Positions 4,650 through 63,252 of a DNA stretch of 64,000 nt are shown in pieces. Source of the DNA: Sphagnum magellanicum (taxonomy: Eukaryota; Streptophyta; Sphagnopsida; Sphagnales; Sphagnaceae); the NCBI GenBank assembly GCA_021904315.1, contig CM038923.1, positions 12,654,038-12,718,037 on the forward strand, read 5' to 3'. The first letter of the stretch is position 1; each line of letters begins with the position of its first letter. The position numbers were made by a program, and so were the translations under genes. A model generated the notes under the pieces. The model did not search any database. It was given only the letters and a program-made list of their open reading frames with translations, and was not told where the DNA came from.

Positions 4650-6398
4650 TCAAGAGCAAAGAGTACACCTGATCAAGCCATTCTCATTACAATTGGGGCA
4701 CCGTTTCACATCATAGGTATCTGTGAGGATCTTGCAGCTTCCGTTGCATTCTGTACAGGGCACAAAACGAATCCCTCCACAACAGTCACAGACTTGTCTA
4801 GAAATTCGTACAGGCAAAGTCTTGACCAAGTCAGCGAGCAAGGCGTCCTCATGCAACTCGAAAACTTCTTCTGCTCCCCCTATGTAGTGACCCTTGATGA
4901 AAACTCTAGGGACTGGCACTGGTTTCCCAAAGAGGGCTTTGAGCTCCTCTCGGAAGCCGGCATGCATTGACACATCTCTTTCATCCACATACACATTGAA
5001 GCTCTCCAGTATCATCCTCAAGTTGTTACAGCTTTCAAATGTTTTTCGAATCCCCCGTAAGCTGGTCGTGTATAGCACAACTCTGTCCTGTCCGCCTGGA
5101 GGGCACTTGAGTTCATACCTTGACAGAGGATCCAGATCCTTCTGCTCCTCAACATCAATGGGTGAGACCTCCTCACAAGAAGATGTCTTTTTCTTAGTGC
5201 ATCTCATTGTCAACAGTGAAACAGACTTCTGCATTTCTGAATTGGTAGTTTTGGTTGTTGACTCCTGCTGCTGCTCATAGAAGGTCCTATGTGAGCTATG
5301 CTGCTGCAAATTGTCACTTTCCATCCAATGGAACTTAGGGCTGTCATCGTCTAAAGTGCTGATTGAGCAAGAAGTCACCTCTCCATCACTACCTACATGA
5401 CACCAACCATCAGATGCATCTGAATCATGCTCCAATGAATCTGCAAAGTCTGCCAAGATGTCAGGATCAAATAGATCCATGTCGTCGTTGCCATGAGCTT
5501 CCTGCAAACAGTCTGCTGCTTTCAGATTCCGACCACTGCCTTGTGGTGCACATACTTCTGTGAAGTCATGCTCCACAATGAGTCTGTTTGTGCCATTTGT
5601 TCGGTCTTGATGTACAGAGTAGCTTGAGTTGAGAACATGAACAGCATTTCCAAGCATTTGTTTCAATGTCGAGGAAGCAGGTGCGCCTGCATCAAACCCA
5701 TGAGTACTCATGGAATGTGATCTTGACTTTTGATCCAGAGATTTGTAGCACTGTGCCATCTTCTCGTCCATGTCAAGTGCTTCATTGGCAAGAAAAGTAC
5801 TAGCATGGGAATCTGGCAACAAGAGCAATGGAGAAGTGCTGCTAGGGTTTGATCTGTCTTCAACTTCAAGTCCCTTCATGAGCTCCCAAGCATCAATGAT
5901 TTCTATTTCCTGATCTTTCACATCCGCCTTGAAAATTTGCTGTTGCTGCTGCTTGATCAAGGGTTTGATCCTATCATCCTTCTCATGTTCGCATAAGATT
6001 GAGTTTCGAACAACACCCAAATCAGCCCATGAATTCGACAACGCAGAACTCTGGTACAACAACGCATCCATTCTTGGTGGCATAGAGTCCCACTTCTTGA
6101 CGCTCTTGTACAAGGGTGCAGCAGGTCTGTCGCTTCGACCTGCAGCTCCAGCAGTGATGACAGATGCGAGGCCGCGAGCGGCAGCAGTATTATCCGGCGA
6201 CTCCACCAGCTTCATGAATCCGCCGGTGGAGGTACTGGCCGATGTGAGCGCCACTGTGTGAGGGTTGTACTGCAAGTCTGCCTTCTTGGGTGGAGGTGGT
6301 GTGCGATAGTTCGACACGGAAAGGCTTCTGAAAGGACCTCTTTCTCTGTCCATTTGCAGAGTTGTAAGACCGCTGGATTTTGATGTGTTGCTTCCCAT
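4650..6398 (-). CDS. Glutaredoxin-domain protein with C-terminal CxxC tail
   Basis: Intact intronless frame of 582 residues. It begins MGSNTSKS, a classic N-myristoylation signal (Gly2, Ser/Thr at 6), so membrane attachment is likely. Residues 1-430 are low in recognisable domains. From about 439 a glutaredoxin-like thioredoxin fold begins with VVLYTTSLRGIRKTFESC, the hallmark of the plant family containing At5g39865 and At3g57070. The normal CPYC/CxxS active site is absent, as usual for this family. The fold is followed by four CxxC pairs at about 537-540, 548-551, 567-570 and 578-581, which look metal-binding. The family is mostly uncharacterised biochemically; redox or metal-linked roles are inferred. 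Single-exon structure is normal for it. The start ATG at 6396-6398 is the first ATG of the frame. Confidence 0.93.
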   Translation of the reverse strand: MGSNTSKSSGLTTLQMDRERGPFRSLSVSNYRTPPPPKKADLQYNPHTVALTSASTSTGGFMKLVESPDNTAAARGLASVITAGAAGRSDRPAAPLYKSVKKWDSMPPRMDALLYQSSALSNSWADLGVVRNSILCEHEKDDRIKPLIKQQQQQIFKADVKDQEIEIIDAWELMKGLEVEDRSNPSSTSPLLLLPDSHASTFLANEALDMDEKMAQCYKSLDQKSRSHSMSTHGFDAGAPASSTLKQMLGNAVHVLNSSYSVHQDRTNGTNRLIVEHDFTEVCAPQGSGRNLKAADCLQEAHGNDDMDLFDPDILADFADSLEHDSDASDGWCHVGSDGEVTSCSISTLDDDSPKFHWMESDNLQQHSSHRTFYEQQQESTTKTTNSEMQKSVSLLTMRCTKKKTSSCEEVSPIDVEEQKDLDPLSRYELKCPPGGQDRVVLYTTSLRGIRKTFESCNNLRMILESFNVYVDERDVSMHAGFREELKALFGKPVPVPRVFIKGHYIGGAEEVFELHEDALLADLVKTLPVRISRQVCDCCGGIRFVPCTECNGSCKILTDTYDVKRCPNCNENGLIRCTLCS

Positions 6399-6637
6399 TT
6401 TTTTGGGTAGGGTTCCAGATCAAATGGGTCGCGGCCGCAGATCTTTTCACTAGTTCAAGCTTCACAGATCAGAAGGAACCCCAGAACTACTACAACACGA
6501 ATCTATATTCTCCTACATGAAGCTGCCCGATTGTTTCCAAAGGAAGAAGAAGAACGTGAACTTCCCGTCAGAGATGTTCGGAATTAAAACTTCAGCAAAG
6601 AAACAGCAATCAGCCAACCAAAAAGGATTGCCGCTCC

Positions 6638-29634: not shown

Positions 29635-31479
29635 TCAGGGTAAATAAGGGGGAGGGGGAGGTGGTGGTGATGGACCTGACAGTGGAATTGCTCCAAATAT
29701 AGTGTTAGCATCTATGCCAGTGGATGTCACTGTTGAAACTGCAATCAGTGCAGCAGTTAATGCTGCATTTCCAGCCACAGTTGGCTCTGCCTGACCGTAG
29801 CTGTCACGGTAGTCTCTGTACTCATCCCGTACATTTGGGCCCCCAACCATTGCACCCACAATAACATGAGGATTGGGAGCATTCTTGTAAAGCCATTGGC
29901 GACCCTGTTGACAACCATACCGCACTCCATTCTTTGGAATTGATGCAGCTCGGTGATGAACTTGTTTTGGGTATTTGTCCCCGTACCCTACTACATAACT
30001 CATGTTCAAAGGATTCTTCCCTAGGATATAGTCTAATTGAGTTCTAGAGAAATTACGCAAAGTCTCCACAGGAAAACTATAGGGACCACAATTATAGCTT
30101 GGAACAGATGCAACCCTCAAATAGTCTGCATACAATGCAGACAGAAATGCAGCACTTGCTACATACTGCAAAGGCTGCCCACCTCCATGGTTCAATTCAA
30201 CAAGCCCACCTTTAGTGCGGTTGAACGTTTTGAAGTTGGGTAAGTACGAGCACATGACAGTATTTGTTTCATTCCAGTACTGCTGCAGTTGCGCCTCGTA
30301 TGGGTACCCAGGTGATTGCAATACATGCAGCCTTGTCAACAATAACTGGGCACCAGCAAGTTTGTTATCCCATGAGAAAATGCCATACCATGGGCCTCCA
30401 CCTTTTGCACCTGCATGAGCTGCCAGTATTGGGTTGGTGACAAGGGACAGGTATGAACTATTCCCTGTTGCGTAATACAGCCATGCACCCCCCCATATGT
30501 ACTCATCCCAGAAACCTGTTGAGTTGTAGAAGACTTGCTCTCCTGGGGGAAGCTGAGTAACAAAACGGTTCCGCTTTCCACCATCCCGAGCAAAGGTGAA
30601 AATATTTCTAGCAGCCATAAGCAGTTTTGAAGAATATGCAGGCGAGTCAGCCCTGAACACTATGGAGGCTGCTGCTAGGGCAGCTGCCATTTCTCCACCC
30701 AGGTCTGGACCAGATGAGACAGTGTAGGCTGGACGGGCATAATCCATGTCCTCTGGCCGCTCCCAACAACTATGGTCGTTAGCAATAGACTCATTTCCAG
30801 CACCTACCTGTGCAAAAACTGTCTGGATGTTGGTGGAAGAGATATTGAAGGTCTTCATCATGTAGTCCGTTCCCCACTTTATGATCTCCTTCACATGCTC
30901 GTACTCTCCAGCTGCTTGGTATTTCTCTGCATACTCAATAACACTCCAGCTCAACAGAGTCATTGCATATGCACCTGGGAACCCAAACTTGATGTTGTCA
31001 CCAGCATCATAGAAACCTCCAGAAAGAGATGTGGGTGGTGCACCAATTGCATCAGACCCATCCCGGACAGCTGATGTCCCTCGCCATGAAATATTGTTTG
31101 AAGAGGGCAATACACCAGATTTTTGTGCATCAAAGAACAAAAGAGATTTCTGCAAAGCGATTGTGTAATTGTCAAGTGGTTGTGGAGAGTGGTGCTTGCG
31201 AGGTGCCACTTTCCATATGAGGATGGCCAAGCCCACTGTTGCACTTGCACCAAAAAGCACGCACAAGAAAATGAAGAACAACTTGCGGCTACATGTCATG
31301 CACCCTAGATCGACTTGTGGTTTTGCCTTGTGTCTGGCTGGTTCCAAAAGCCAACTCTGCTGAGTCTCCTCCAGGCTTCTTACAGATGCACGATCAAAGT
31401 CCAAGTTTCGGCTCTGATTGTCCTCTGCACCAGAGTCCATTGCTGCTACATCCAATGGGCCTCCCCATGTATTGTACAT
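29635..31479 (-). CDS. KOR: KORRIGAN-type membrane endo-1,4-beta-glucanase (GH9)
   Basis: Intact 614-residue frame in one exon. It is a type II membrane protein: a cytosolic N-terminus starting MYNTWGGPLD with the LEETQQSWLL dileucine-type sorting segment, one membrane helix at about 67-90 (LFFIFLCVLFGASATVGLAI onward), then a GH9 domain facing the lumen or apoplast. The nucleophile/base block GGFYDAGDN is at about 154-162 and the acid Glu is in EPTVAGN at about 565. There are many N-glycosylation sequons and a Pro-rich tail of seven prolines. Length and order match Arabidopsis KOR1 (621 residues), which acts with the cellulose synthase complex in wall formation and cytokinesis. KOR1's second sorting motif YVDL reads QVDL here. 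The absence of introns is unusual, because KOR1 genes are normally multi-exonic. Confidence 0.95.
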   Translation of the reverse strand: MYNTWGGPLDVAAMDSGAEDNQSRNLDFDRASVRSLEETQQSWLLEPARHKAKPQVDLGCMTCSRKLFFIFLCVLFGASATVGLAILIWKVAPRKHHSPQPLDNYTIALQKSLLFFDAQKSGVLPSSNNISWRGTSAVRDGSDAIGAPPTSLSGGFYDAGDNIKFGFPGAYAMTLLSWSVIEYAEKYQAAGEYEHVKEIIKWGTDYMMKTFNISSTNIQTVFAQVGAGNESIANDHSCWERPEDMDYARPAYTVSSGPDLGGEMAAALAAASIVFRADSPAYSSKLLMAARNIFTFARDGGKRNRFVTQLPPGEQVFYNSTGFWDEYIWGGAWLYYATGNSSYLSLVTNPILAAHAGAKGGGPWYGIFSWDNKLAGAQLLLTRLHVLQSPGYPYEAQLQQYWNETNTVMCSYLPNFKTFNRTKGGLVELNHGGGQPLQYVASAAFLSALYADYLRVASVPSYNCGPYSFPVETLRNFSRTQLDYILGKNPLNMSYVVGYGDKYPKQVHHRAASIPKNGVRYGCQQGRQWLYKNAPNPHVIVGAMVGGPNVRDEYRDYRDSYGQAEPTVAGNAALTAALIAVSTVTSTGIDANTIFGAIPLSGPSPPPPPPPYLP

Positions 31480-33120
31480 CTTTCACCCTGTGTGGTTACA
31501 ATCGCTGGAGACCACTGATGAGTAAAGAGCAAGTGCAGCAAGCTCTTCACAGCAACAACTGCAATTTTTTCGCCTTAATGCAATCTGTCACAACCACCAA
31601 ACACAAAATGAAAGTGAGAAATAGAGACCACAAAGTGTAATAAGCTAAATGCACATGGGAAAGAAACAGATGGAAGGATGACCTAATTGCTCAAAATCTG
31701 CAGCCTTCTCTGGCTGTAATCTCTAGCAGTGCTGAAGGAACTTGAGAGATTCCTAACGTGAAAGTCTGAGTAGGAAGATGCAAGTGTCTGCAACAACAAA
31801 GGATTGTGAGAGAATGCTTTGAGAAGAAAGAGGTAAGACAAATTCAATCCTCTTCAGTTAGTTTCCCCTTGCTTCTGCTCGATTCAGTCTTCTCTGCCTC
31901 CTCTCTTGGTTGTTAGATTTCTTCAGTCTTTCTCTTGGATTTTCAGTTTTTTGTTTTTCTTTTTTCAATCCATTTCTCCTCCTTCGCATGTCTGTGTTTC
32001 TTCATCTTGTCCTCAAGCATTTCTTCATATCGTTCCTTGATCTTTTCCATTTTGAGTTGTCTTGTATTCTTCAAATTACAGCCTATACATTTGAATGCTC
32101 TTTCATCTGATGTGATCGAGTCCCAAGAATAATGAAGAATCATTTTCCTCTATCTACACGCTGTTGGTCAAGAAAGAAAAACCTTTGTGAATGTTGAGAC
32201 TAATATTTCTGCAAAGAAAGAACGTTGACAAACAGACGGCATTGTTCACAACAAGAGTGACGACGACAAGGATGATACACAGACAGCTCAAAGATTGTGC
32301 CTCTCTTACTGTCGCAGACGGAAAACTTGGAAGACCTTGTCCTGTGGCGCCTCCTCCTCTCCTTCTCCTTCTCCTCCTCCAGCTCGTATTCTTCTTCTTC
32401 TTCTTTTTCTTCTTCCTTCTCCTCGTCGGGTCTTCAGCGCCGATCTCTCTCAATCCCGAAAATAAAACTCTCTCTTCTACTCCCACACCTTCCAAGTCAA
32501 AAGTGGCTACAGCGAAGGCACAAAACAAAGTCTACAACAACAACATCATCATCTTCCTCCTCCTCATCATCATCATCATCACCTTCTTCTTCTTCTTATT
32601 CTAGAAGATCTCTTTCTCGAGTCCCTTCTGCCTGGAATCAAAAGTTTTTCCCCCAGCTGCAACTTTAAACAACCGACGTGCAAATTATTGTTCCACAAAC
32701 GTCCAAAAGGATCCAAATCAAACACACACACACACACACACACAACCACTCACTCTCAAGCTTCTTCCTCAGTCTCACTCAGATCACAAAAGCTCTTCAG
32801 CTGAGGGCGGAAGGGGGAAAGGAGCAGGCAAGCTACTCGAGAGCTGGAAGAAGAAATAAAAAAGCACCAAGCAAGCAAACAGAGAAGCAAGCAACCAGCA
32901 CAACCTGCAGCCCAAAAAAAAACAAAACAAAACAAAAACCGTCAAAAAATCAGTCAAAAAAATCAATCAATAATGCAGCTGGCTTCCTGACTGGCTGGGG
33001 TTGCAGTAGGGCAAAACTCAAGAACTGACATTGTTTCCATAGTACTCACTCGAAAAGAGTGAGTGGCAGAAAACACCACACAACAAAGCTGACACTCTGA
33101 CAAAGTGGAAGGGGGAAGCC
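31480..33120 (-). other. Upstream region of the GH9 gene with simple repeats
   Basis: Likely 5'UTR and promoter of the minus-strand GH9 gene. It contains a CT/TTC-rich tract at about 32340-32425 (GA-rich on the gene strand), a CAT/CTT trinucleotide tract near 32540-32600, an (AC)11 microsatellite at 32722-32743, and an A/C-rich run near 32905-32970. The exact transcription start is not visible. No additional gene is supported. Confidence 0.5.
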
Positions 33121-41039: not shown

Positions 41040-42755
41040 TGCCAATTTCATCTAATTGAAATTTTAGCAATTTTATACAATGGAATTTGACAAAGTTTCT
41101 TGTAATGCTTTTATCACCATGTTTGGACAAACATAACCTGATATGTATATAGATTTATATTCTAATTTTTTTTCAAAAATACTATAATCGAACTATCATC
41201 ATATGCCAATTGAAGTAACACAATTTGCACCAAATTTAAATTTATAGGAACATTAACAATGTTACCATGCATTCCATATTGTCCATATCCTTTTAATTAG
41301 AATATTTGTGCAAAAGCTAGATGAGGTGCAATAAGATGTTCTTCAATTTTGTTTAATATTGATCCAAATTATAAATTTAATGTATTATTTGTAATATGAT
41401 CACATAAAACCATGTTGATTGGTTTTCCCACAATCAATTTTTTTCGACAATAATTAAATATAAACATGTGATCTAATATCTTTTCTTGTTAAAAGTCATT
41501 GGGATTTTTTTTTCAAATATAATTTTGACACAAAACAAATTTGAAATCCAAAACATAATGTTTGGCAACAAGAACATGCATATTTAGCAATGTCTTCAAT
41601 GTTTTTTTTGTATTTTATAATACTTTTGTTATCATTACTTTGTTCAATAAATTAAAAAATATATGTATTTTGGAGTTGAATTTTTTCTTGGTAAAATAAA
41701 ATATTTTTTCATTTTTTTCATGTTTTATGGTTATTAGATTATTTTATTCAAAAAAGTCATCAAATTAATATAAGTGTTGTTTAGATTGTGAATTGAATCC
41801 ATTAATCTTTAAGTTCAATTTCTTTTTTGAATCATGTATGATGTTTTCATTTTGAATCATACTTTTGAATTCTATTTTCATTTTTTTTGCACTTTCTTTT
41901 ATTGTTGAACTTCTTGCATTTATTTTATTTTTATTGTTTGGATTGGTATTTTTATTGCATGTGTAGATTGTTCATTTTTTTGTTTCTTTCATTTATTTCT
42001 TACTTCCAAAAATTTCATAACTTAAATGAGTTTTTAAAATTGAATTGTTATGTAATAATTCAATATAATTATAAATGGAATCTTATTTTTTTGAAATTGA
42101 ATTGTGTAAAAAAAACACAATCCAAATCTACATGTTTTGATGTTTTAAATATATTTTGTGAAAACATTTTTTTTGTCATTGTTTTTAATCACACAAGTTG
42201 AATTAAAAACTTGTTCTTTTAAAAAATAGAATTTGAATCATTTGTATATTTCAAACTATTATTTAAACTATTATTCAAATATTCTTTGGGATCAATTTTA
42301 TTTTGGTTAGATTTGAGATATTTCAAATGTCCTTTTAACTTGTGATGAAGTAATATTTAAGTTTGGATACATTTTGATAAATGTTAATGCAATTTTTTGT
42401 GGTATCCAATTAGGATGCATTTTTATATTTTTAATAAATCATTGTTTAATTCAAAATTCCATCTAAACCTTTTATGTTTAAAATTAATTTCATTATTATT
42501 ATTTAATTCATTTTCCACATAACGATTTTAATTTTTTTTATATCTTACCATTTGAATTATTCACTATTTGGAAACAATATTCAACAAGTTCAAATGACTA
42601 TTACCATATATTATGTTCAATATTTGAATCTCACAATCATTCCCAACTTTCATCATTACTTGTATATTTTTTTATTCCAAATGTATATTAGACGTTGTAA
42701 ATATTGTGATAACCAAAAAATTGTTGTAAAATATCCCCATAATCCACCATGTCGT
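41040..42755 (-). other. AT-rich DNA, probably the decayed 5' part of the Helentron
   Basis: Very AT-rich. Short minus-strand stretches look coding, for example MHPNWIPQKIALTFIKMYPN near 42430-42360 (the initial Met codon is internal), but no domain is recognised. It is continuous in composition with the Helentron and is cut by the Gypsy element on its right. Confidence 0.35.
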
Positions 42756-42974
42756 GATGTGTAATGTCGTGACGTAAGGTGTCGTAAGGATGTAAATATG
42801 TAGTAAATTCTACTAAACAAAAAAACTAAAGCTAGTCAAAGGTATAAACTAATCAACTAAAAAGAGATGCATGCACACATATATATACAATGCACAAGGG
42901 AGGCTGAAATGAAATTCTCATGTATCCTCACCCAAACCTGAGTCGGGAAAAACATGGCATGGTCTGAGTAGGAA

Positions 42975-43145
42975 TCAAGGTGTTGTAGGAGAACATGATG
43001 GACAATACCAATTGCCGGCGGGAACTTGAATGAGCTTTGGTTTGAGGCAGAAGAGATGGTATCCACCATTACAGTTATCGCAAAGCAGCATCTAATCAGC
43101 ATTGTCTATCCTCTGACATACCTGACATGGATAATCAAGTGGAGG
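42975..43145 (-). pseudogene. PHD zinc finger at the C-terminus of Pol
   Basis: In the integrase frame and only 30-odd residues after its end: PCQVC, then 11 positions (one now a TAG stop at 43092), LLCDNC, GGYH, LFC, 14 residues, and WYCPSC, followed by a stop at 42975. The spacing C-x2-C-x11-C-x2-C-x4-H-x2-C-x14-C-x2-C is the canonical C4HC3 PHD pattern, including the conserved Trp two residues before the last Cys pair. PHD fingers read histone H3 tails, so by analogy with chromoviral chromodomains it may steer integration. The role is inferred; the motif is directly seen. Confidence 0.85.
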
Positions 43146-44266
43146 AATCCAAGTCGACGTGATGATGGTAGGATCCAAATTTGGCAGGTGGCAAGGCGCA
43201 CAATTTTTGGAATGATCTCGAATTGTGCGTCTGTCAGTTCCTTGCAACTCCAACACACCTGAAGGCCTAATCGCCTTAATCTTCAAGATAATGCGACCAA
43301 AAGAAATGTCTAAAGTATCATTGGGTTGTCGCTGAAGATACACAAAATCACCAACATCAAATTGTCTCACCTTAGGTTTGTAACTACCACCTCGTGTGTG
43401 TGCATATCGTAAGGTGTCTTGATGTTGTGTAATGGACAGGTTTTCCATGGCCATGGGCATAAGCCTCCTGAATAGAGCAACCCTTTCTGCAATGACCTTA
43501 ACCCAAGTGGATGGGGAGTCCAAGTCCACAACCTGGTCCATTTGAACAGTAATGGAAGAAGGTGGAATGGGGTGTCTCCCAAAAAGTAAAAAGTAAGGAG
43601 AAAAATGAGATAAAGAGGCATGTTTGAACACCCTATAACCCATGGCGATATATGGGAGGGCCAAGTCCCAATTCTCTTTGTTCTTAGTGAAGCAAATCTT
43701 CCAAAATCCCTTTTTGCACGTTTGAACCATCCTTTCTGCAAGGCCATCAGCTTGGGGATGATCTCTTGAAGTCCGACGATGGTCAATGAAAGCATGGTCA
43801 AGTAGGTCTTGGAATTCTCCCCTGAATTCTGATCCTTGATCAGTAAGGCACTCAGCACAAGCCCCAAACCTACTTAGAACTTGTTGTAAGAAAACCTTGC
43901 TAGTGTTGTGTGATGACTTGTCCAGTAGCGCAACAAATTCAACCCACTTTGAAAATGCTCAATCATAATCATGATGTAAACATTAACCCTAGAGGTTTGT
44001 GGTAACTCTTCAGCTAAATCACATGACCAACGATAGAACATGCCTTGAATAGGGAGTGGAAAAAGCGTGAGCTGTCGAGAGGAGAAAGAAGTTCTCACTC
44101 TATCACATTGTTCACACCTAGCAATGATGTCTTGGACCTGAGCATACATACCTCTCCAATGGTAATGAGGAGCGAAAAGGCTATAAGTACGCTTAATTCC
44201 AAAGTGTCCAAGCTCTGAGTGTACCTTTTGAATAAGACCAGGCCGTTCATGTGGTGGTGGAACCAT
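43092..44266 (-). pseudogene. Integrase
   Basis: HHCC zinc-binding N-terminus: VHSELGHFGIKRTYSLFAPH through CEQC (about 44230-44105). Of the catalytic core, the first Asp is in SCDLAEEL (about 44015), the second Asp in LTDQGSEF (codon at 43839-43841), and the Glu in ADGLAERM (about 43735). All three DDE residues are retained, but a frameshift near 43.87-43.93 kb separates the first from the others. Stops at 44327 and 44288 lie just upstream. The C-terminal part (FDVGDFVYLQRQ, then IRPSGVLELQG and NCAPCHLPNLDPT) leads directly into a PHD finger instead of a chromodomain. Confidence 0.9.
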
Positions 44267-44326
44267 TCTGTCGCCTTGTGGTAAGCATCAGACGAGGTGA
44301 TTGTCCCTCCACGAGTAGCATTTGGA

Positions 44327-46213
44327 TCATTGTTGTATGCGATCATGCTGATTTGATGTAACTTGGGGAGGGTATTCCCCATGTTGAAGAAACCCCAAAG
44401 TGTCCAAGTCCTCCCATATATCTAGAATGGGATGCTCAACCAGGTTACATTGCAATAGTGCAAGATAACTAAATGCCTCAAATACATGTATTGTTGGAAT
44501 TTGGTCAAAATCTTGCCTGGCTTCTAAAAAATCTTCAGAGGTAGTGAGGGGTCTTCGTGACATGGTATTCGCATTTTGATGTGTAATACCATGTCGGTGA
44601 ATAACCTTGAACTCATACTTTTGAAGTATAAGTGCCCAATGAGCTAACTTACCAGTAAGCTTATCGTTGGTCATCAACCACTTGATAGGCTGGTGGTCAA
44701 TATACAAAGTGAAATTGGTGCCATAAAGATAAGGCCTGAAATGTATGACGGCCCATACAACAACAAGGCACTCCCCCTCGTATGAAGAATAGTTGCTCTC
44801 GAGCAACTTGTTGTTGCTTCGAGATGCATAGGCGATAACATATTCCTTGCCTTCCTCATCAAGTTGGCCAAGAATAGCTCCAATACCAAGAACACTCCAG
44901 TCAGTGTGTAGAATGAAGACCTTGTTGAAATCAGGTCTTCTCAGAATGGGGAACTCTGAAAGCTTTTCCTTGAATGTGTTGAAAGCTTCTTGAGCCTCAT
45001 CGTTCCATGTCCAAACAACATCCTTCTTTAGCAATGCATAAAGAGGATGAGTAATAGTACTGAAATCTTGGACATAAATTCTGTAGTAATTACATAATCC
45101 AATGAAGCTCCTCAACGTGTGAACATCAGTAGGATTGGGCATCTCCAAAATGGCTACTACTTTGGTCCAATGAGCCATAATACCATTTGGCAAAATTCTA
45201 TGTCCAAGGTAGATTACTAAAGTGATAACAAACTCACACTTTTAAAGATGGATCTTCATATTGACTTCGTGGAGCCTCTTGAATAACTCCTCAAGATGGG
45301 CCAAATGCTATAGGAGTCCCTTGCTATGCACTAGGATGTCATCTATGTAACATTTCAGGAAATCTGCCCCTTCGAGAACATGGTCCATGACTCATTGAAA
45401 GAAGACAAGTGCATTCTTCAATCCAAAAGGCATCACAAGCCATTCCCATAACTTATTTCTTCCATGGAATGTTGTTTTCTTGCGATCCTTCGCAGTGAGC
45501 ACAATCTAGTTGAAACCTTGCCTTAGATCCACAATTGTGAAGATGTTTGAATCTCCAATGCTATCAAATAATTCTTCAAGGATGGGCATGGGGTACCTAT
45601 CCTGAGGTGTAACTAGGTTCAAAGGCCTATAATCCCCGCACATCCTTTTCTTAGTCCATAATCCAGCTGAATCTTTCTTTGCTGGCATTACTATAGCGAC
45701 TGCGAAATCAGAACTTGATGGCTGAATGAGACCGGCCTCATGGAGCTCTTTGCATCTTTCATCTACCAGTTCCCATTCATGTTTGCTCAACCTATGCCTC
45801 CTTCGATAGACGGGTGTTTCATCTGTAAGGTCTATAGATAATTGCATGGTCTTACACCTACCTAAGTCTTTCATTGAGCATGCAAACACATTCTCATACT
45901 TAATTAGCAAGTTTGTGACTTGGTCTCTTTCCTTCTTGGTGAGTTGGTTCCCCATAACGAAAGGGTAGTTGGAAACACATGGAATGGAGTTGGAAAGTAT
46001 GTTTGAAGAACCTGGTGTATTGGGTTCTCCACTATCCAACTGCGTAGATTCGTAGAAGGTTGTGATTGTTTCTCCAGAAGCTGATGTACCTCCAGGTGTA
46101 TTGGACACAACTTGAGTTAAATTACATGGTACCTTCCCCCCCAACACTGAGAATGAAATGTAAAGTGTTGAAGATAGGTAAGTGTACTTGGTCGGGGTGC
46201 CATGTGGTTGCAT
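44327..46213 (-). pseudogene. Reverse transcriptase and RNase H
   Basis: The RT reads KRMCGDYRPLNLVTPQDRYP at about 45640, with FTIVDLRQGFN before a stop at 45506, then MPFGLKNA and the catalytic YIDD at 45338-45349. Stops are at 45506 (TAG), 45392 (TGA), 45308 (TAG) and 45242 (TAA). The 288-residue frame 45193-44327 gives the thumb/connection (LRSFIGLCNYYRIYVQDFS) and RNase H (FILHTDWSVLGIGAILGQLD, then YASRSNNKLLESNYSSYEGE and YIDHQPIKWL). This is a normal Gypsy layout. The frame is shifted by one base relative to the methyltransferase. Confidence 0.93.
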
Positions 46214-46239
46214 TGCTAGAACTGCAAGTTGATTGAATC

Positions 46240-47393
46240 AGTGTTAGTGTTATGTACATTTGAAAAAGTACATAAGTTACCAACAACCATGTAAGAGAGT
46301 TCAGGTCCATGCTTCTCCCTAGTAGAGCATTACGCTCTAATATAGTCACCTTAGTGTGACTAGTAGTGCCAATTTGGAACCCCATAGCCCTTTCTCTTTC
46401 TTCTGGGCTTGGTTCATCCCAAGTGGTTGAAGCATGACAATACACCAGGCCTGGCCCATTTCCCTGAAAGGCGTGTGCTCCTGGGAAGGAGACAAAGGTG
46501 GGCCAAGCACCTCTTGGTTTTCCTATTGTGTTCGCAGGAAACCAAGGAGGTTTTTTTTGCCTTGTAATTGGTTGGCAAGAACTTTGATCCTCCAATATGT
46601 GAGAAACCTGCAAGTTCGGGTCTCCAATAGTGTATTTCAAAGCTAGCTACAGAACTGAGAGTGGTGCTAAGTTGGTCCACCAGTTGCACAGCTAGTGCGC
46701 ATAGGAACCACATTGTGTCGCATCAAGTAAGAGCGGCTCTCCAAGGTAATGTTTGACTAGTGTGTAGTGCTCCTGGACTTTCTCCCTTTGATCAAGCTGA
46801 GAAGGAGTGTTCTCAATTACATAATCAAGTGTAGGAAAAATGGATTGAGCCTAGGTGATCAATCGTATCATGTCCATGAAAAGACCAGATCTTGTGTCAC
46901 TCAAGCCTTCTCCAAATCCAGCCACTGAAAATCCTTGACACTCACAACTTGAAATGATGAGGTCGACAGGGCCAAGTAATTCCATATGTTTTTTTTGAAT
47001 TAGTTATATGTCAGAGGGCAAAAATGTGAAACTAGCCTTCCATGCGGTGGTTGCAAATCGTTGTGGAAATCTTGTTGTGAACTCCCTCATTCTTGATGCC
47101 GCCACTTGCCTTGTAATAGGATCAATGTCCACGTAAAAATACTTCCAAACCACCATCCCTGACTGTAGTAGGGCTTCAAGACCTATACCAATACCACCAA
47201 AGAACTCTAGTAATGTAATCCTTTCCTTCGGTGGTGTCCAGGTGATTAGTTGACGAAGTAATGGCTTAATCGGTTCGCCATGGTTTTCCATGCTCTCAAA
47301 ACTAGACAAAGCTTTGATCAAGGGCTTGTGGGCTACTTTGAACCTTTGTAAAACCTCTGGTCCATGTTGAATGTTAGTAGGAACCACCTTCAA
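46240..47393 (-). pseudogene. C5-cytosine DNA methyltransferase domain inside the retrotransposon
   Basis: In the same frame as Gag and protease, between protease and RT. Motif I is LLEFFGGIGIG (at about 47181-47210, SAM binding). Motif IV is DLIISSCECQGFS with the catalytic-position Cys codon at 46938-46940. Motif VI is DYVIENT (about 46805-46825). Motif VIII is LLLDATQCGSYAH then a stop (46692). Motif IX is ERERAMGF (about 46383-46400). Motif X is LLGRSMDLNSLTWL (about 46285-46326). The order I-IV-VI-VIII-IX-X is the linear one, not the rearranged DRM order. The H-(R)-x-x-x-W context and the LLGRS motif resemble DNMT3. Stops at 47004, 46851, 46692 and 46647 kill this copy. Motif IV has Glu-Cys where Pro-Cys is canonical. 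It would methylate DNA, perhaps the element's own cDNA (inference). Confidence 0.88.
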
Positions 47394-47456
47394 GCTTTCA
47401 ATAGCTTGAGCGTAAGCTATCTCCTCCTCATCTCCCTCTATCCATTCATGGCTAGC

Positions 47457-48989
47457 TTATTGGATGTAGGAAATGGTATGTGCTTCCTTGAGCATACAAT
47501 GGTGAGCCATAGGACTATGGTTCCCATGTAAATCAAAGGGCATGTATCCTAGGTGGTGGCCATCAGTTTCCCAATCCACTCGGTAGTATGCATGTTCGAA
47601 CCAGTTGTCAATTGTGAAACCTGGTGGAAACAAGGCCTTTTGCCCAATGAGCACATCATAACTTGTGGCATTGGTGACTAAACATTTGACCTATAAGCAA
47701 AGCTCTTGATCTGTACCTTCATTGAACTTAAGTGCAATCAAATCCGAGCTTTCCCCAAGTACCTCCTCTACGTTCCCACTAGCGGTGCGAATCTGCCACA
47801 TAGATTTCCGTAGTTTGGAATCAAGCATGCCCATCTTCTTGGCAAATTGAACTCCAAGAATCACTGGTTGGGCATCTGTGTCAAGAAGTACCATTTTGGG
47901 TGTATGTCCTCCCAGTTGGATTGTTGACCCAGTATTGTCGACAATGGCAACTCTGGTGGCGATGGAAGTTCTCTCACTAGGCACCACCTTCGGAAATGAG
48001 TGAGAGACTTTGTGGAGAGAATGGCTATCCACAATACCTTTGTTGAGTAACAAATCCACAAGTGAGGTGTTCTGAACTCCCTTCTGATATGTGAATGTAG
48101 AATCAGAGGTAGGAAAGCCCACTAGTTTAACCATGCTAGAACTAGTGACCAGATTACGAACACCATCTGCAACACGTGAGCTAATCGAATGTCTCTCTAA
48201 GGTGTTGGATGGGACCTCTATAACATGTGGATCATGGATTGGTAGAGGACCTGATGTAGTGTTCAAGGTATCCTCTAAGATTGCAATTATGTCCTTGGTG
48301 CTTAACTTCAAATCTTGAAAACTAAACAATGGTGTACTCACAAGCTTTTGTGCCACTTCATGCATTTGAAGTTGGCATTCCATAAGCTGATCAGTGGAAA
48401 ATTGTGTGTTTTCCTGATGTACATGTACTCCTGGGACACGAGAATTTGATGCCCTAACAGCTTGTGGTGTAGTAGTCTCCTCCCCCTTCGCCAATAAGGT
48501 GCATTCTTCTTCCATGTTGGGAGGACGAAAAGATTGTGGCATGACTGCTCGAGCTCCTTTAGCCTTGGTAATAGGACTTGAACTAGATGTGAGTCCATCA
48601 GTCTAAATTACCTGCCTAGTGGCAGAAACTTTTGGTGCCACACTAGCTTCTTGTGCCGCGACATAGGAAGGGCAAAAAGAAGTAGCAAATTCTGGTGTGA
48701 GAGTAGAATTGCGTGGAGTGGAAATAACATGCTCCCCAACCATGGCATCGTGTGGAAGGCCATAGAACGACCTAGGAGGTCCCTCTTGTGATCCTGAACC
48801 TTGTACAGGTTGGGCATGACTAGCTGGTTGGGAGGACTTACCTTTTAGATTAGCAAGTTGAGCCTTCAATGATTCGAGTTCATTTTGTAAAGTTTGAACT
48901 TGAATTGCATGGGCTTGAAGCACCTCCCTTTTGTCCGCATTGTGCTCCTTCTTCTTAACATTCTTGTTGGAATTACCCTTGGTGGGCAA
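47457..48989 (-). pseudogene. Retrotransposon aspartic protease region
   Basis: Same frame as Gag. The segment 48989-48850 has a short coiled-coil-like stretch (LQNELESLKAQLANLKGK). The protease core reads KMVLLDTDAQPVILGVQFAK, where the catalytic triad D-T-G is D-T-D at 47874-47882. The Gly-to-Asp change is a G-to-A transition and would inactivate the enzyme. The post-protease segment YDVLIGQKALFPPGFTIDNW follows at about 47655, after a stop at 47691. Other stops are at 48603 and 47457. Confidence 0.8.
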
Positions 48990-49073
48990 AACCTGAGTGG
49001 AAGGCTAAGGTGCCTTGGCTTTTGGTTGAGGGACAATGGAAGATGCTAACAGATTTTGCCGTTGTAATCCGAG

Positions 49074-50384
49074 TTACTTCCACTCTGGGAACTTGGCAAA
49101 ACAGACAGATTCCTGATGTCCCTCTTTCTCACAATAATCACAAAAGAGATCTTTGGAAGGAATGTTGCATTCACTAGCTTTGTGGGCAGGATTGCCACAG
49201 TAGTTGCAAGAAGGTAGGATGGGTGTAGCCGTGTGCACCGCTTTAGTCTTTGAAGAAGAATGTGATGATTTAGTTGGCGCAGCTTGTGTAGGTTGAAGCC
49301 TTGAACGTGATGGAGGCCTCATAATACTGGCCTCATAGTGTGCATGAGCAAGTTCCAACTTTTCGGAAATGTTGTACACATCTAGCAAAGTGTACAAGTC
49401 TCCAAATTCTACAAAAACCCATTGCAAAACCTGCGCGTGGAGCGTTGGAGTACCTTCCAACGAATGAAGATACCGGTGGGCAGCTTCCAAGTCGGTGATG
49501 CTCTAGGTATCCTCTTTGAGTTTGAGAAGCCTCCTGTAGAGCATCTTGAGGGTTTCATCCTTCTGTCGAAAGAAGGTGGCGAGCTGTAGAATTTTTTCAG
49601 AACTTTTGACTAGAAATTCCAGCTCAAGAATTTGAAAGAATTCCCCCACTAAATCAGCAAAAGCCGGCGCATCAGTTGTGGGAAGAATGTTTGTAGTAGC
49701 AATAATGAGTTGTTGAAGAGAAAGGTTTATTGAGGTAGGTACCGGGTCTGGATTATTCGGCATAGTCCCGTGATGTGCAATTGTAGCTTGCAATGCAGCT
49801 TGAGAGGCGGTGGCGATGGCTATGGCGTATGCTGGATTGGGAATCTAGGTGACACCCAAAATCCTTGCAGAATGTTGCTCGTAGACATCCAACGCCTCAT
49901 AGTGCACATAATGAGCCAATTGTTTGAATGCAAACGCCTCGATGTAATTAGCGCCATACTTGAGCTCCAATTCACAAACCATAGTTGAAAAAGTTGCCTT
50001 GAACTCCCTAAAAGAAATAGTACCTGGCCTTCCGCTAAACTTCTCAATTCTCCCAGAGGAATTACTGACCTCCATGGTGTATATGGGTGTTGAGGTCACA
50101 GTTTGCAACGAGATATACGGTGATGCTGTGAAAGTAGGTGCGGTAACAGGCGTACCCCACTGATGAGCCCCTCCAAATGGACTCTGATGTACCGTTGATG
50201 TAGTGTAACCTGAGCCTGAATTCCTGGTAGGAGTTGTACTAGATGACAATGGTGCTGTAGACACTTGATCGTATCGTCGTGAAGATCATGAGCTTAAAGA
50301 AATTGGCTCAAAGGATTGTGTGTTACTTCGTAGTTGATACTTGGGCTTTGGCTGAGCGGTAGTGCTCTCATCATCCGAGGACAT
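49074..50384 (-). pseudogene. Gag polyprotein with two CCHC zinc knuckles
   Basis: The start ATG at 50382-50384 gives MSSDDESTTAQPKPKYQLRS. Premature stops lie at 50286 (TGA), 49845 (TAG) and 49503 (TAG), and the stop at 49074 (TAA) also interrupts a continuing frame. The capsid-like part includes EKFSGRPGTISFREFKATFS at about 50070. Two adjacent CX2CX4HX4C knuckles, CNYCGNPAHKASEC and CDYCEKEGHQESVC, lie at about 49101-49208; these bind retroelement RNA during packaging. The frame is otherwise shared with protease and methyltransferase, so a Gag-Pol fusion is likely. Confidence 0.88.
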
Positions 50385-50499
50385 GGTGTTGTCCCATGCC
50401 CCAAAATTTTGTGATAGTACATAACACTAATTACAAAATTTTAACACAAAGTACAATTTGAAGAATACAGTGCGTTGTTGGGAATGAGCCGTGATACAC

Positions 50500-51400
50500 A
50501 GAGATCGCACGGAAGTCAAACAAATGTCCAGCGAAGGTCGGACGAAGATTGGACGAAGATCGAACGGAAGTCAAACAGATGTTGGATGAAAAGGTAGGGC
50601 AACAAAATAATATGTAGGACGGTAGGGCATAGGACGCATGACAGCAAGGCGCATGACGGCAAGATGCAAGATGGCAAGACGCAGGACATAGGACGAAAAT
50701 CCAACAAACGTCGGATGGAAGTCAATGGATGGATAGAAGTTCGACGAACGAAGTTGAACGAATCGTCCGACGAAGTTGCACGAACGAAGGTCGCAACGAT
50801 GGCAACATTGTCGCTTGCAATGCTACAACAATGATGGCGCTGCAACTCGCAACGCTATTGTTGTTGTGGTGCTGCGGTGTTGCAGCTCGCAACGTTGTTG
50901 TTGTTACGGTGCTACTACTGCTGCGGCGTTGCAACTCGCAACGCTACTGGTGCTACAACGCTGCTATTACTACTGCGGCGTTGTAGCTTGCAACGTTGCT
51001 GTTGTAGCAGCGTTACTGCTGTTGTGCGCGTTGTTGTTACTACAACATTGCTATTGCTATAACAGCGATGGCACTGCAATGTTGCGGCGCTGTAGTTCAC
51101 GACGCTGCAATGCTGCGGCGCTGTAATTCACGACGCTGCAATGATGCGGCGCTATAGTTCGCGACACTACAATGTTGTGGCGCTACGGCGCTACTGCTGC
51201 AGTGATGGCGTTACGACGCTATGGCGCTGCGGTGCTACAGTTTGCGACGTTGTAACGTTACAACGTTGTGACGCTATTGTTTGCGGCAACGGCTACCGAC
51301 AGCGCACTATGCAACGATGGCGAGTGGCGAGTGGCGAGTGGCACTAGAGCTCGCGACAACGACAACGTTGTGCAGGATGGTAGGTAGCACTATGCTACTC
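50500..51400. repeat. Minisatellites within the LTR
   Basis: Several arrays in a GC-rich block. Near 50500-50720 there are phrases like gacgaagatcgaacggaagt and ggcaagatgcaagatggcaa. The phrase tgcaactcgcaacg repeats at 50841, 50881, 50930 and 50982. A clean 31-bp tandem repeat has units starting gcggcgct at 51084, 51115 and 51146. Small reading frames here are by-products of this GTT/GCT-type repetition and are not genes. Confidence 0.8.
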
Positions 51401-51882
51401 TGCAGCGATGGTAGGTGGCGGCGGCCGAAATTTTTGTGTTTTTTTTTTTTCTACTTGATAGTTTCAAGAAAGAAAAAGAAAGCAAGATAGAGAGAAAAGA
51501 GACAGAGCTTTAAAACCTGTTTCCTGGCTCTATTTGTTGGCATAACACAAGTTCCTTCTTACAACGTTAACTTCCTTCGACAACAACAACACCAGCATCC
51601 TCCGGCAACAACACCAGTAGCACCAGCAACACTAGCAACACTAGCAATAGCAATGATAACTTAAAAACTCACATGCAAAGAAATATGCTGCTTTCAACAT
51701 GAAGCAACAAAAAGTGGAGTTTTTTTTCTAGAATTGAATTGCAATGAAAGAAGGAAATGAAATGTATGTAAACGGTGGCCGTGCAATGGTCACCGTGAGC
51801 ATCTAAAAATCCTAACTTATTATGGAGGAAGCTCCTAACAAAGGAATTTTAGAAAAACTAAAAGGAGAAGGAAAGGTTTGGG

Positions 51883-51891
51883 CCTTTTATA
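51883..51891 (-). promoter_or_regulatory. TATA box of the LTR promoter
   Basis: TATAAAAGG on the minus strand, about 150 bp inside the proposed LTR start and upstream of the Gag frame, in the right orientation. It is preceded by a GC-richer segment. Confidence 0.5.
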
Positions 51892-52032
51892 CCGTCGTCA
51901 ACAAACTGAAACCCTGAGTACCTAATAACGTATAATCGCCTAAAACCGTACATCAACCCTAAAAGTGCACATGGGCATGCCCGTAATTAGCCATCATGTA
52001 TGAGGCCATGTACGAGCATGACAACCATCACA

Positions 52033-52380: not shown

Positions 52381-53270
52381 TTAAAGGTCTGAAAATAAAA
52401 TTTAATCGTAGATTTTGAATTTAGGTTTCGATGTATAATAAAAAAGTTCAACTTGTAATTATGTTTTTGATTTAAAATGAAGGTTTACAATTAGGCTCCA
52501 AATTAGGGTTTAAAATTAAGATTAGAATTAAAGTTTCAAATTAAGGTTTAAATTGAAGGTTTAGAATTAAAGGTTCCAACTATGGTCTAAAGTGAAAGTT
52601 TGAAAGTAAGGTTAAAATTGAAATTAAAGTTTAAAATTAAAGTTTTTCCAATTAGGGTTTAAAATGAAAGTTTTAAATTATGGTTTAGATTGAAAGTTTA
52701 GAAATAGAGTTAGATTAGAAATATAGTTAGAATTAGGGTTTCAAATTAGAGTTTAAAATGAAATTTTCAAATTAAGGTTTAGATTGAAAGTTTCAAAATA
52801 CAATTTCAAATTAGAAGTTCCAAACAAGATTAAAATGAGGATTTCAAATTTGGGATTAAGTTTAAGGTTTTAAATTGAAAGTTTAGGATTAAGGTTTAGA
52901 TTGAAGGTTTATTAGTAAGATTGAAATTAGGGTTTCAAATTAAGGCTTAAAGTTAAAGTTTCAAAATAAGTCTTAAAATAAAAAATTTCACTTGAAAGTG
53001 TAGAATTAAATTTTGAATTAGATCTTTTATAATTTTAAAGTTTAAATAAAGGCTTAGAACTAAAATTAAGACATCAAAATAAGGTTAAAGGTTCAGGGTT
53101 TAGGGTTTAAAATAAAGGTCTAAAATTAGGGTTACGAAAATAAAGTTTAGAATTAGAGTTAAGAAATAAGGTTTCAATACAATATACAATTAGGATTTTA
53201 AATAAAAAATTTAATCAAGGTTACAAATTACAATTTAGGGTTTAAAGTTTGAATATCAAAATTGATTAAC
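52380..53270. repeat. Degenerate array of 'ggtttaaaattaaag' units
   Basis: Dozens of short diverged units of about 12-26 bp built on 'gttt(a/c)aaatta', with local telomere-like runs such as ggttcagggtttagggttta near 53089. Periodicity is obvious by eye but imperfect. There is no coding sequence. Confidence 0.7.
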
Positions 53271-61989: not shown

Positions 61990-62345
61990 AATCGGAGTCA
62001 AGTGATTTTGTGTGTGTGTGTGTGTGTGATTTTGTTGCAATTTTTGCAAATTTTATGTGTTTTTGATTTTCTCTCAATTTTTGTTGCAAATTTTTAGTAT
62101 ATTGATTTTTTTCAGTTACTGCAATTTTTATGTGAGTTGATTTGTTTGAGTTTTTGTTGCAAATCTTATGTCTGTCAATTTTTGTCTCAATTTTTGTTGC
62201 AATTTTTATGTGTGTTGATTTTTTTGTGTCCTTTTTGTAATTTTTATGTGTGTTGATTTTTGTCTCAGTTTTTGTTGCAATTTGTGAGTGTGTTGATTTG
62301 TCTCAATTCTTGCAATTTTTGTGGGTGTTGATTTGTCTCAGGTTT
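61990..62345. repeat. Degenerate 'tttttgttgcaatttttatgtgtgttgat' array
   Basis: Six to eight diverged units of about 40-60 bp directly upstream of the helicase frame, beginning with a (GT)9 tract at about 62015-62032. T-rich, non-coding. Confidence 0.7.
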
Positions 62346-62355
62346 TTGGAACTTT

Positions 62356-63252
62356 TTGTTGTGTTTTGGAGCATCAGTTTGCCTTCTGGATGAAGAATAT
62401 TGTCAAGTTTTGCAACTTTTTGGGGGTTTTGATAGTCTTCCCGCCATTGCAAGAGAAGAAGGTGTTAATCCAGATTCGATCAAGATTCCATCCCATATGA
62501 GGCTGCTAGCAGAAGATTGCAGCTTAAGAGGATTAATCCGAACCATCTATCCGAATCACCGGTGCCACTCTGGGGATGCCATGTATCTTATGCAACGCAG
62601 CATTCTAGCACCCAAAAATACTAACGTTGATGAAGTCAACAATGCAATTTTTGAATCATTATCTGAAGAATCGCACACGTACCTAAGCGCAAATTCTTTG
62701 ACTCCAACAAAAGAAGGTGCAAGTGTTGCTGCAGGAGTTTCAATGGATTCATTGTATCCGGAGGAATTTCTGAACACTTTGCGATTCAGCGGTATCGCAA
62801 ATCATGAACTGCAACTCAAAGTGGGCGTGCCAATCCTTTTGTTGCGCAATCTCAATCATTTAATAGGATTGTGCAATGGTACGAGGTTGATTGTCAAGAG
62901 ATTGGGTCAGCGTGTCATTGAAGCGGAGATCATCACAGGGAACAATGTCGGCAAATGTGTGTTCATACCCCGCATCATCATGTCCCTCACCGGGACTGAT
63001 TGGCCATTTGTTCTACGTCGTCGTCAATTTCCTGTTCGAGTGGCATTTGCGATCATAATCAACAAGAGTCAAGGTCAAACATTGGACAACGTTGGGGTAT
63101 ATTTGCCGTCTCCGGTCTATTCCCATGGTCACCTGTATGTTGCTATTTCACGGGTCACAAGTAGTGCAAACATCAAGATTTTCAGCGGCCAGGGTCCCGA
63201 TGGATACATGCGGAATGTCGTATATAAAGAGGTAGCTACAGACAGTAGCTAA
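62356..63252 (+). pseudogene. C-terminal half of a plant Helitron PIF1-like helicase
   Basis: Open for 298 codons, but the first recognisable family residue is only around 62470 (IKIPSHMRLL, then GLIRTIYPNH). Next come ILAPKNTNVDEVNNAI (about 62605), SLYPEEFLNTLRFSGIANHE (about 62750), CNGTRLIVKRLGQRVIEAEI (about 62875), and the helicase motif V/VI block FAIIINKSQGQTLDNVGVYL (about 63047) with LYVAISRVTS (about 63135). Rep, Walker A and Walker B are missing, and the apparent start is not an ATG, so this is a 5'-truncated remnant. The high integrity of the remaining frame suggests a young or recently active source. Helitrons move by rolling-circle transposition and often carry host exons, which fits the CKA fragment upstream. 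Confidence 0.88.

Follow-up and report, generated by a model that had tools for sequence, protein, structure and literature searches.

A DNMT3-like methyltransferase domain inside the coding region of a Gypsy-type retrotransposon family of Sphagnum magellanicum

The genome of the moss Sphagnum magellanicum (439 Mb in 31 contigs) harbours a multi-copy family of Gypsy-type retrotransposons that carry a C5-cytosine DNA methyltransferase (DNMT) of the DNMT3 type between their protease and their reverse transcriptase (RT). One copy occupies positions 42750..52023, on the minus strand, of the window, that is, the whole stretch of 64,000 nucleotides analysed here, located at C17:12654038-12718037, and this copy is dead, because four in-frame stops fall between motifs I and X of its DNMT and its RT lies in a frame other than the one shared by gag, protease and DNMT. 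A first-pass annotation of this DNA had proposed that a land-plant lineage of Gypsy elements carries, or carried, its own DNMT, which is supported here for a Gypsy-type lineage of mosses and liverworts, other copies of which have long open frames. The arrangement of a DNMT within a Gypsy Pol is already known from the alga Klebsormidium, and retroelement DNMTs also from dinoflagellates; the present findings add a wide distribution in the green lineage, bryophytes included, a catalytic motif that is altered in the main Sphagnum family, and repeats that do not fit the type of integrase.

Architecture of the window copy

The order along the transcript is repeat A1, leader, gag with two zinc knuckles, aspartic protease, DNMT, RT, RNase H, DDE integrase, a C-terminal PHD finger and repeat B1, all on the minus strand. 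The ends of the element (TGTC...GACA) were set by comparison of A1 and B1 with copy L012, and a 4-bp target site duplication (TSD), TGGT, is read on either side, at 52024..52027 (element 5′ side) and 42746..42749 (3′ side). Repeat A1 (51731..52023), with a TATA-like box, shows 70% identity to A2 of L012, and repeat B1 (42750..42925), which ends in GACA, 85% identity to B1 of L012, with A2-B2 absent behind it. The leader between A1 and gag (50290-51700) is CpG-rich and repetitive, with a CpG observed/expected ratio of about 1.1 versus 0.25-0.56 in the coding part; this ratio failed to separate the competing explanations considered below. Elsewhere in the window lie a host gene with a glutaredoxin domain (4650-6419, minus strand; PF00462, PF23733), an unbroken 615-aa frame of glycosyl hydrolase family 9 (29635-31482, minus strand; PF00759, 8e-139), a Pif1-like helicase fragment, perhaps of Helitron origin (62332-63252, plus strand; PF21530), and degenerate AT-rich tandem repeats (52455-53250) that adjoin the insertion site of the element.

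The gag region (49503..50285, one in-frame stop) is 82-88% identical to that of 16 of the 17 main-family copies described below, with a partial match in the remaining one (L014), and its piece 49503-49844 gave no Pfam match. Two CCHC zinc knuckles (49167-49208 and 49101-49142) can be read in the sequence of the region 49074..49502, followed by the aspartic protease (47691..48010; Asp_protease_2, E 6e-4, under the curated cut-off), whose active-site motif (47853-47891) is LDTD in the window versus LDTG in relatives. Behind the DNMT come the RT (45326..46237, YIDD at 45326-45352), located by tblastn to the 17 main-family copies (76-95%) and with Pfam RVT_1 matched in copy L015; the RNase H region (44327..45241; PF17917, 4e-33); and the integrase (43092..44287), with a zinc-binding domain (PF17921, 2e-16) and a DDE core (rve in copy L015) whose residues were assigned by motif reading (D 44000-44032, D 43824-43850, E 43725-43763). 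The PHD finger (42978..43130), with one in-frame stop, was recognised by its motifs, and by PF00628 (8e-12) in copy L015. Protease, RT, RNase H and integrase, the last with its DDE core and HHCC zinc finger, thus follow the Pol order of Ty3/Gypsy elements with the DNMT interposed, an assignment made on domain order and not on an RT tree with named Gypsy clades. No LTR pair was found at both ends around the window copy or in the family, where split repeats are present instead, so that the element is termed Gypsy-type because of its domains, not its repeats.

The DNMT itself extends from motif I to motif X (46287..47213). The first-pass annotation had placed motifs I, IV, VI, VIII, IX and X in order between protease and RT, in the frame continuing from Gag, and their positions (47181-47213, 46926-46952, 46800-46820, 46662-46709, 46377-46409 and 46287-46325, respectively) confirm it, together with a match of the translation, read through with X at the stops, to Pfam DNA_methylase (E 5e-9, 36.4 bits for a cut-off of 22). 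On its own, the segment 47004-47456, free of stops but limited to motifs I-II, gave no such match. Among solved structures, those of DNMT3A match best by sequence, and the canonical order of motifs I-X is joined by a complete DNMT3 catalytic fold predicted for the element enzyme, as in the DNMT3 family. At the sequence level a chance resemblance to methyltransferases is excluded, because 164 database proteins match the DNMT at E<=1e-3, with up to 92% identity over the aligned part, and a genome search with relative P0002 scored at least 100 places (of 1158 candidates) at 74-87% identity, mostly over the full domain.

Genomic copies, selection and the altered motif IV

Twenty places were fetched from the PF00145 matches in the genome, picked mostly for long open frames, and all of them carry DNMT, RT, RNase H, integrase and PHD finger in the same order. 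Seventeen belong to the main family, in which the window's gag, zinc-knuckle and protease pieces match upstream of a DNMT 86-90% identical to that of the window. The other three (L025-L027) form a second family, with a DNMT of 38-39% identity, a normal Pro-Cys and an unchanged domain order; in these, the protease piece of the window had no counterpart by search, its gag matched weakly in one of the three and its zinc knuckles in two, and the protease motif LDSG is visible in frame ahead of the DNMT in L001, which is the same place as L025. Long open frames occur in other copies, and one fetched copy reads open in a single frame through 2379 codons. Scans of viral contigs with P0001 and A1 confirmed nothing.

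The broken window copy, taken alone, could be an accident in which a host methyltransferase gene had landed by chance in one Gypsy copy with no meaning for the element, a reading that would call for other copies without the domain at this site, or for a domain that is a separate host gene. Neither was observed. Besides the 20 fetched copies, a genome search with the RT piece scored at least 144 places of 3522 candidates, and when the best 101 of 145 RT matches were compared with 100 and 124 DNMT places, 74 of those 101 were preceded on their own strand, at a distance of 0.3-2.6 kb, by a scored DNMT match. Four RT places without a scored DNMT match were inspected: in three the DNMT region is present, with a DNA identity of 95-98%, and the fourth is broken within it. 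The host DNMT places found, read by eye, are DRM-like with a rearranged motif order (L002, L005, L044) or DNMT1/CMT-like (L045), with no host DNMT3 among them, and for this reason the element DNMT is, judging from its sequence, not a copy of those host genes. The domain in the other copies refutes a chance insertion, and the two families that share one order at 38-39% DNMT identity, the relatives known from several bryophytes and a green alga, and the purifying selection on the DNMT make it next to inconceivable.

This selection was measured as pooled, uncorrected dN/dS over the 17 main-family copies and the window, a sample mostly picked for open frames and hence biased against stops, not obviously against missense changes. 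The pooled value for the DNMT is 0.28 (median of pairs 0.26), versus 0.61 and 0.76 in the other two frames, and the remaining domains gave 0.31 (RT), 0.34 (RNase H), 0.21 (integrase), 0.15 (PHD), 0.27 (gag) and 0.54 (protease); for the protease the frame test is indecisive, one alternative frame being lower (0.32) than the true one. DNMT variants common to at least three copies fall 7/5/21 at codon positions 1/2/3, whereas singletons fall 42/52/43. This pattern and the dN/dS values indicate that the DNMT was under constraint while the element moved and has been drifting in each copy after insertion. The private changes are mostly C-to-T, with 23.7 (CG), 18.8 (CHG) and 8.8 (CHH) per 1000 versus 1.4-4.3 for other changes, a decay that peaks at CG and CHG, as methylated DNA would show, and that can stem from host enzymes alone. 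Some copies are young: in L016, A1 and A2 are identical over 310/310 positions, and B1 and B2 over 178/178.

Motif IV is normally PCQ, with a near-invariant Pro-Cys. The window DNMT reads Glu-Cys-Gln (ECQ) at 46926-46952 instead, and Glu-Cys marks the main Sphagnum family, with Pro-Cys in the second family and most relatives. Of the 17 main-family copies, 16 matched the scan pattern W[EP]CQG, and all of these have Glu-Cys; on the DNMT tree described below the change from Pro to Glu before the catalytic Cys requires at least four steps (21 Glu and 86 Pro in the 107 rows scored, with 8 unscored). Rows with Glu on this tree include P0188, P0198, P0205, P0211, P0218, P0226, P0181, P0182 and P0185, among others. 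From its position, the Glu could lower or alter activity, and both its near fixation in the main family and its recurrence would fit an enzyme that is catalytically dead or weak there and retained in the polyprotein for DNA binding or for structure. We regard this as unlikely, given that at least 90% of 28 aligned relatives retain the Cys of catalysis, Glu-Asn in motif VI, Ala-His-Arg in motif VIII and Trp-Thr-Asn, that dN/dS is low across the domain and that most relatives have the normal Pro-Cys.

Split repeats and a DDE integrase

The 3′ end of the element is B1-A2-B2 in nine of the 17 main-family copies (L009, L011, L012, L014, L016, L021-L024) and B1 alone, as in the window, in the other eight. 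At the 5′ end A1 was read in L009, L012, L015, L016 and the window, and partly in L010, so that the full A1-coding-B1-A2-B2 arrangement, like that of DIRS elements, was read in L009, L012, L016 and the second-family copy L025. These split repeats explain the missing ordinary LTR pair of the window copy. A1 begins with TGTC where it was read, and the last B ends in GACA, except for AACA in L012, with L009 altered (TGACA). DIRS retrotransposons use a tyrosine recombinase and are not known to make a TSD. A DDE integrase is found here instead, with a 4-bp TSD in all five main-family copies of which both ends were available (TGGT in the window, CAAT in L009, GTTC in L012, CTCT in L015 and TAGG in L016) and in L025 (TTTC); the split repeats are thus at odds with the integrase.

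A polypurine-tract-like run of G, decayed in the window, directly precedes B1. By retroviral logic the LTR would be B-A, with the integrated form permuted in the way that opening of a circle between B and A would produce; at this B|A junction a palindrome, GACAGCTGTC, was found in five of the six copies examined, from both Sphagnum families, and not in L026. One-LTR circles would then give A-coding-B and two-LTR circles A-coding-B-A-B; alternatively, the short form with B1 alone may have arisen by recombination between B1 and B2. As to priming, the first 12 bases that follow A1 in L016 can pair with a stretch located 33 bases downstream of where the TATA box starts, a length reached in 1 of 3000 shuffles. 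The complementarity between the A1-adjacent bases and the presumed transcript start also spans 12 bases in L032; it spans 10 in L012 and L015, only 9 in L009 (43 of 2000 shuffles) and only 7 in the second family. Tf1 elements are self-primed, and the resemblance to this type of priming is a lead, not a result. A hairpin behind A1 was rejected, being no better than shuffles (z -0.73).

Relatives, known systems and possible roles

The distribution of these DNMTs in the green lineage is wide, comprising mosses, liverworts and a green alga. Relatives with a name come from Sphagnum magellanicum, S. balticum, S. troendelagicum, S. fallax, the liverwort Calypogeia fissa, Marchantia polymorpha and the chlorophyte Cymbomonas tetramitiformis, and many further ones are unnamed metagenomic sequences; no Klebsormidium, fern, seed plant or Physcomitrium was named among the matches listed in three length-limited protein searches. 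Two domain orders can be told apart among 231 sequences. In type I (32 as labelled), found in bryophytes and others, the DNMT lies ahead of the RT, and in type II (37), found in Cymbomonas and others, it lies behind RT and RNase H and ahead of the integrase where this is present. The type I label of P0215 was rejected, as it came from a 14.5-bit match inside its own DNMT.

The DNMT tree holds 115 of the 231 rows (125 with a domain of 240-460 residues, minus 10 near-duplicate Sphagnum-like ones), 62 of them with no order label, and has several long branches, with support given as SH-aLRT and not as bootstraps. It separates 40 rows, including all 34 of type II, from 75 rows, including 18 of the 19 labelled type I, with P0215 as the exception (SH-aLRT 99). 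An RT tree, reduced by a length filter to 19 of the 69 sequences with an RT match, likewise separates 7 rows of type II from 12 of type I (SH-aLRT 99). The two trees, of which the DNMT tree has no host DNMT3 outgroup, fit one old capture followed by a move within Pol, and also fit two captures of related enzymes. Two bryophyte lineages are not claimed: an AU test of a single clade of the named bryophyte rows (p 5e-8) was badly posed, near-identical unnamed Sphagnum-like rows having been excluded, and with these rows included a single clade is not rejected (p 0.134). A tentative scenario, which we consider rather doubtful, is that a green-plant lineage of PHD-bearing Gypsy-type elements caught a DNMT3-type enzyme once, before the split of Chlorophyta and Streptophyta, moved it once within Pol, from one to the other of two sites (protease-RT and RNase H-integrase), and retained it as a functional component of retrotransposition. 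The DDE integrase would take cDNA circles that open within the LTR, at the palindrome of the B|A junction, and the enzyme would methylate the circle or cDNA before insertion.

Elements of the CrREM1 type of Chlamydomonas are likewise Gypsy elements of the green lineage with a PHD finger, but unlike the Sphagnum element they have it in a separate reverse-strand ORF and are not known to carry a DNMT. The DRM methyltransferases of plants share a DNMT3-related catalytic domain, with a rearranged motif order in the DRM-like genes of this genome as opposed to the canonical order in the element. The closest known system by description (no Klebsormidium record was among the matches listed) is KnitGypsy-Dnmt3 of Klebsormidium nitens (de Mendoza et al. 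2018, PMC5890265), which, in the available part of that source, likewise combines a Dnmt3-type DNMT in a Gypsy-type Pol frame, purifying selection (Ka/Ks below 0.2, versus the pooled dN/dS of the Sphagnum family) and DIRS-like repeats. The Sphagnum element differs in its land-plant host, its C-terminal PHD finger (the word PHD is absent from the main text of PMC5890265 as far as available) and its motif IV Glu. In the same part, the Klebsormidium acquisition is regarded as independent and a wide distribution in the green lineage does not figure, both SymbioDIRS-Dnmt3 enzymes of dinoflagellates were active in yeast, on CG, and the KnitGypsy-Dnmt3 and SymbioLINE-Dnmt enzymes showed no activity there, which was judged inconclusive. 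As described there, SymbioDIRS-Dnmt3 resembles the Sphagnum element in a Dnmt3-type DNMT in Pol and split repeats and differs in its tyrosine recombinase; SymbioLINE-Dnmt, also of dinoflagellates, is a retroelement that encodes a C5 methyltransferase, but it is a LINE with the DNMT in ORF1 and of its own lineage. DNMT3 members in streptophyte and dinoflagellate retrotransposons are also mentioned, citing de Mendoza et al. 2018, in the available part of PMC12344493. A search of the open-access literature listed no account of a DNMT in a Gypsy element of bryophytes; the available parts of PMC6453930, PMC10714607, PMC9516144 and PMC2836005 do not mention one, and those of PMC9033089 and PMC12477816 hold nothing on C5 DNMTs in Gypsy elements.

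RT and DNMT were both credibly matched in 68 of the 231 sequences, where they share a single reading frame and no separate DNMT ORF was seen, which favours work in the particle. What the sequences show is a dead member of a Gypsy-type family, present in many copies, whose polyprotein includes a DNMT3-type enzyme; the reading we prefer, to which we give about an even chance, adds self-methylation in the particle and targeting by the PHD finger. The DNMT would be made as part of Pol, be freed from it by the protease and ride in the particle alongside RT and integrase, where it would methylate the double-stranded cDNA of the element no later than at integration; the PHD finger would direct the integrase to chromatin. 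New copies would arrive pre-marked. This would make them less harmful to the host, whose maintenance methylation they could prime, up to a reactivation of the element. The DNMT might instead act mainly on non-self targets (host chromatin, competing elements or the RNA of the element) and be kept for shifting host silencing in favour of the element. A constraint on the DNMT as strong as on the RT, an altered motif IV that could mean an altered substrate and a PHD finger that suggests action at chromatin would all suit such a role; with RT and DNMT in one frame it seems rather improbable.

DNA methylation is a classic host weapon against transposons. Here selection preserves a methyltransferase carried by the very kind of parasite that hosts silence through methylation, and an arrangement known in print from one alga and dinoflagellates now extends to land plants. 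The DDE integrase with split repeats and the recurrent change from Pro to Glu beside the catalytic cysteine are separate, testable oddities. Why a genomic parasite would methylate DNA becomes testable through the long open frames in Sphagnum and through the relatives in Marchantia, for which laboratory genetics and methylomes of this liverwort are available.
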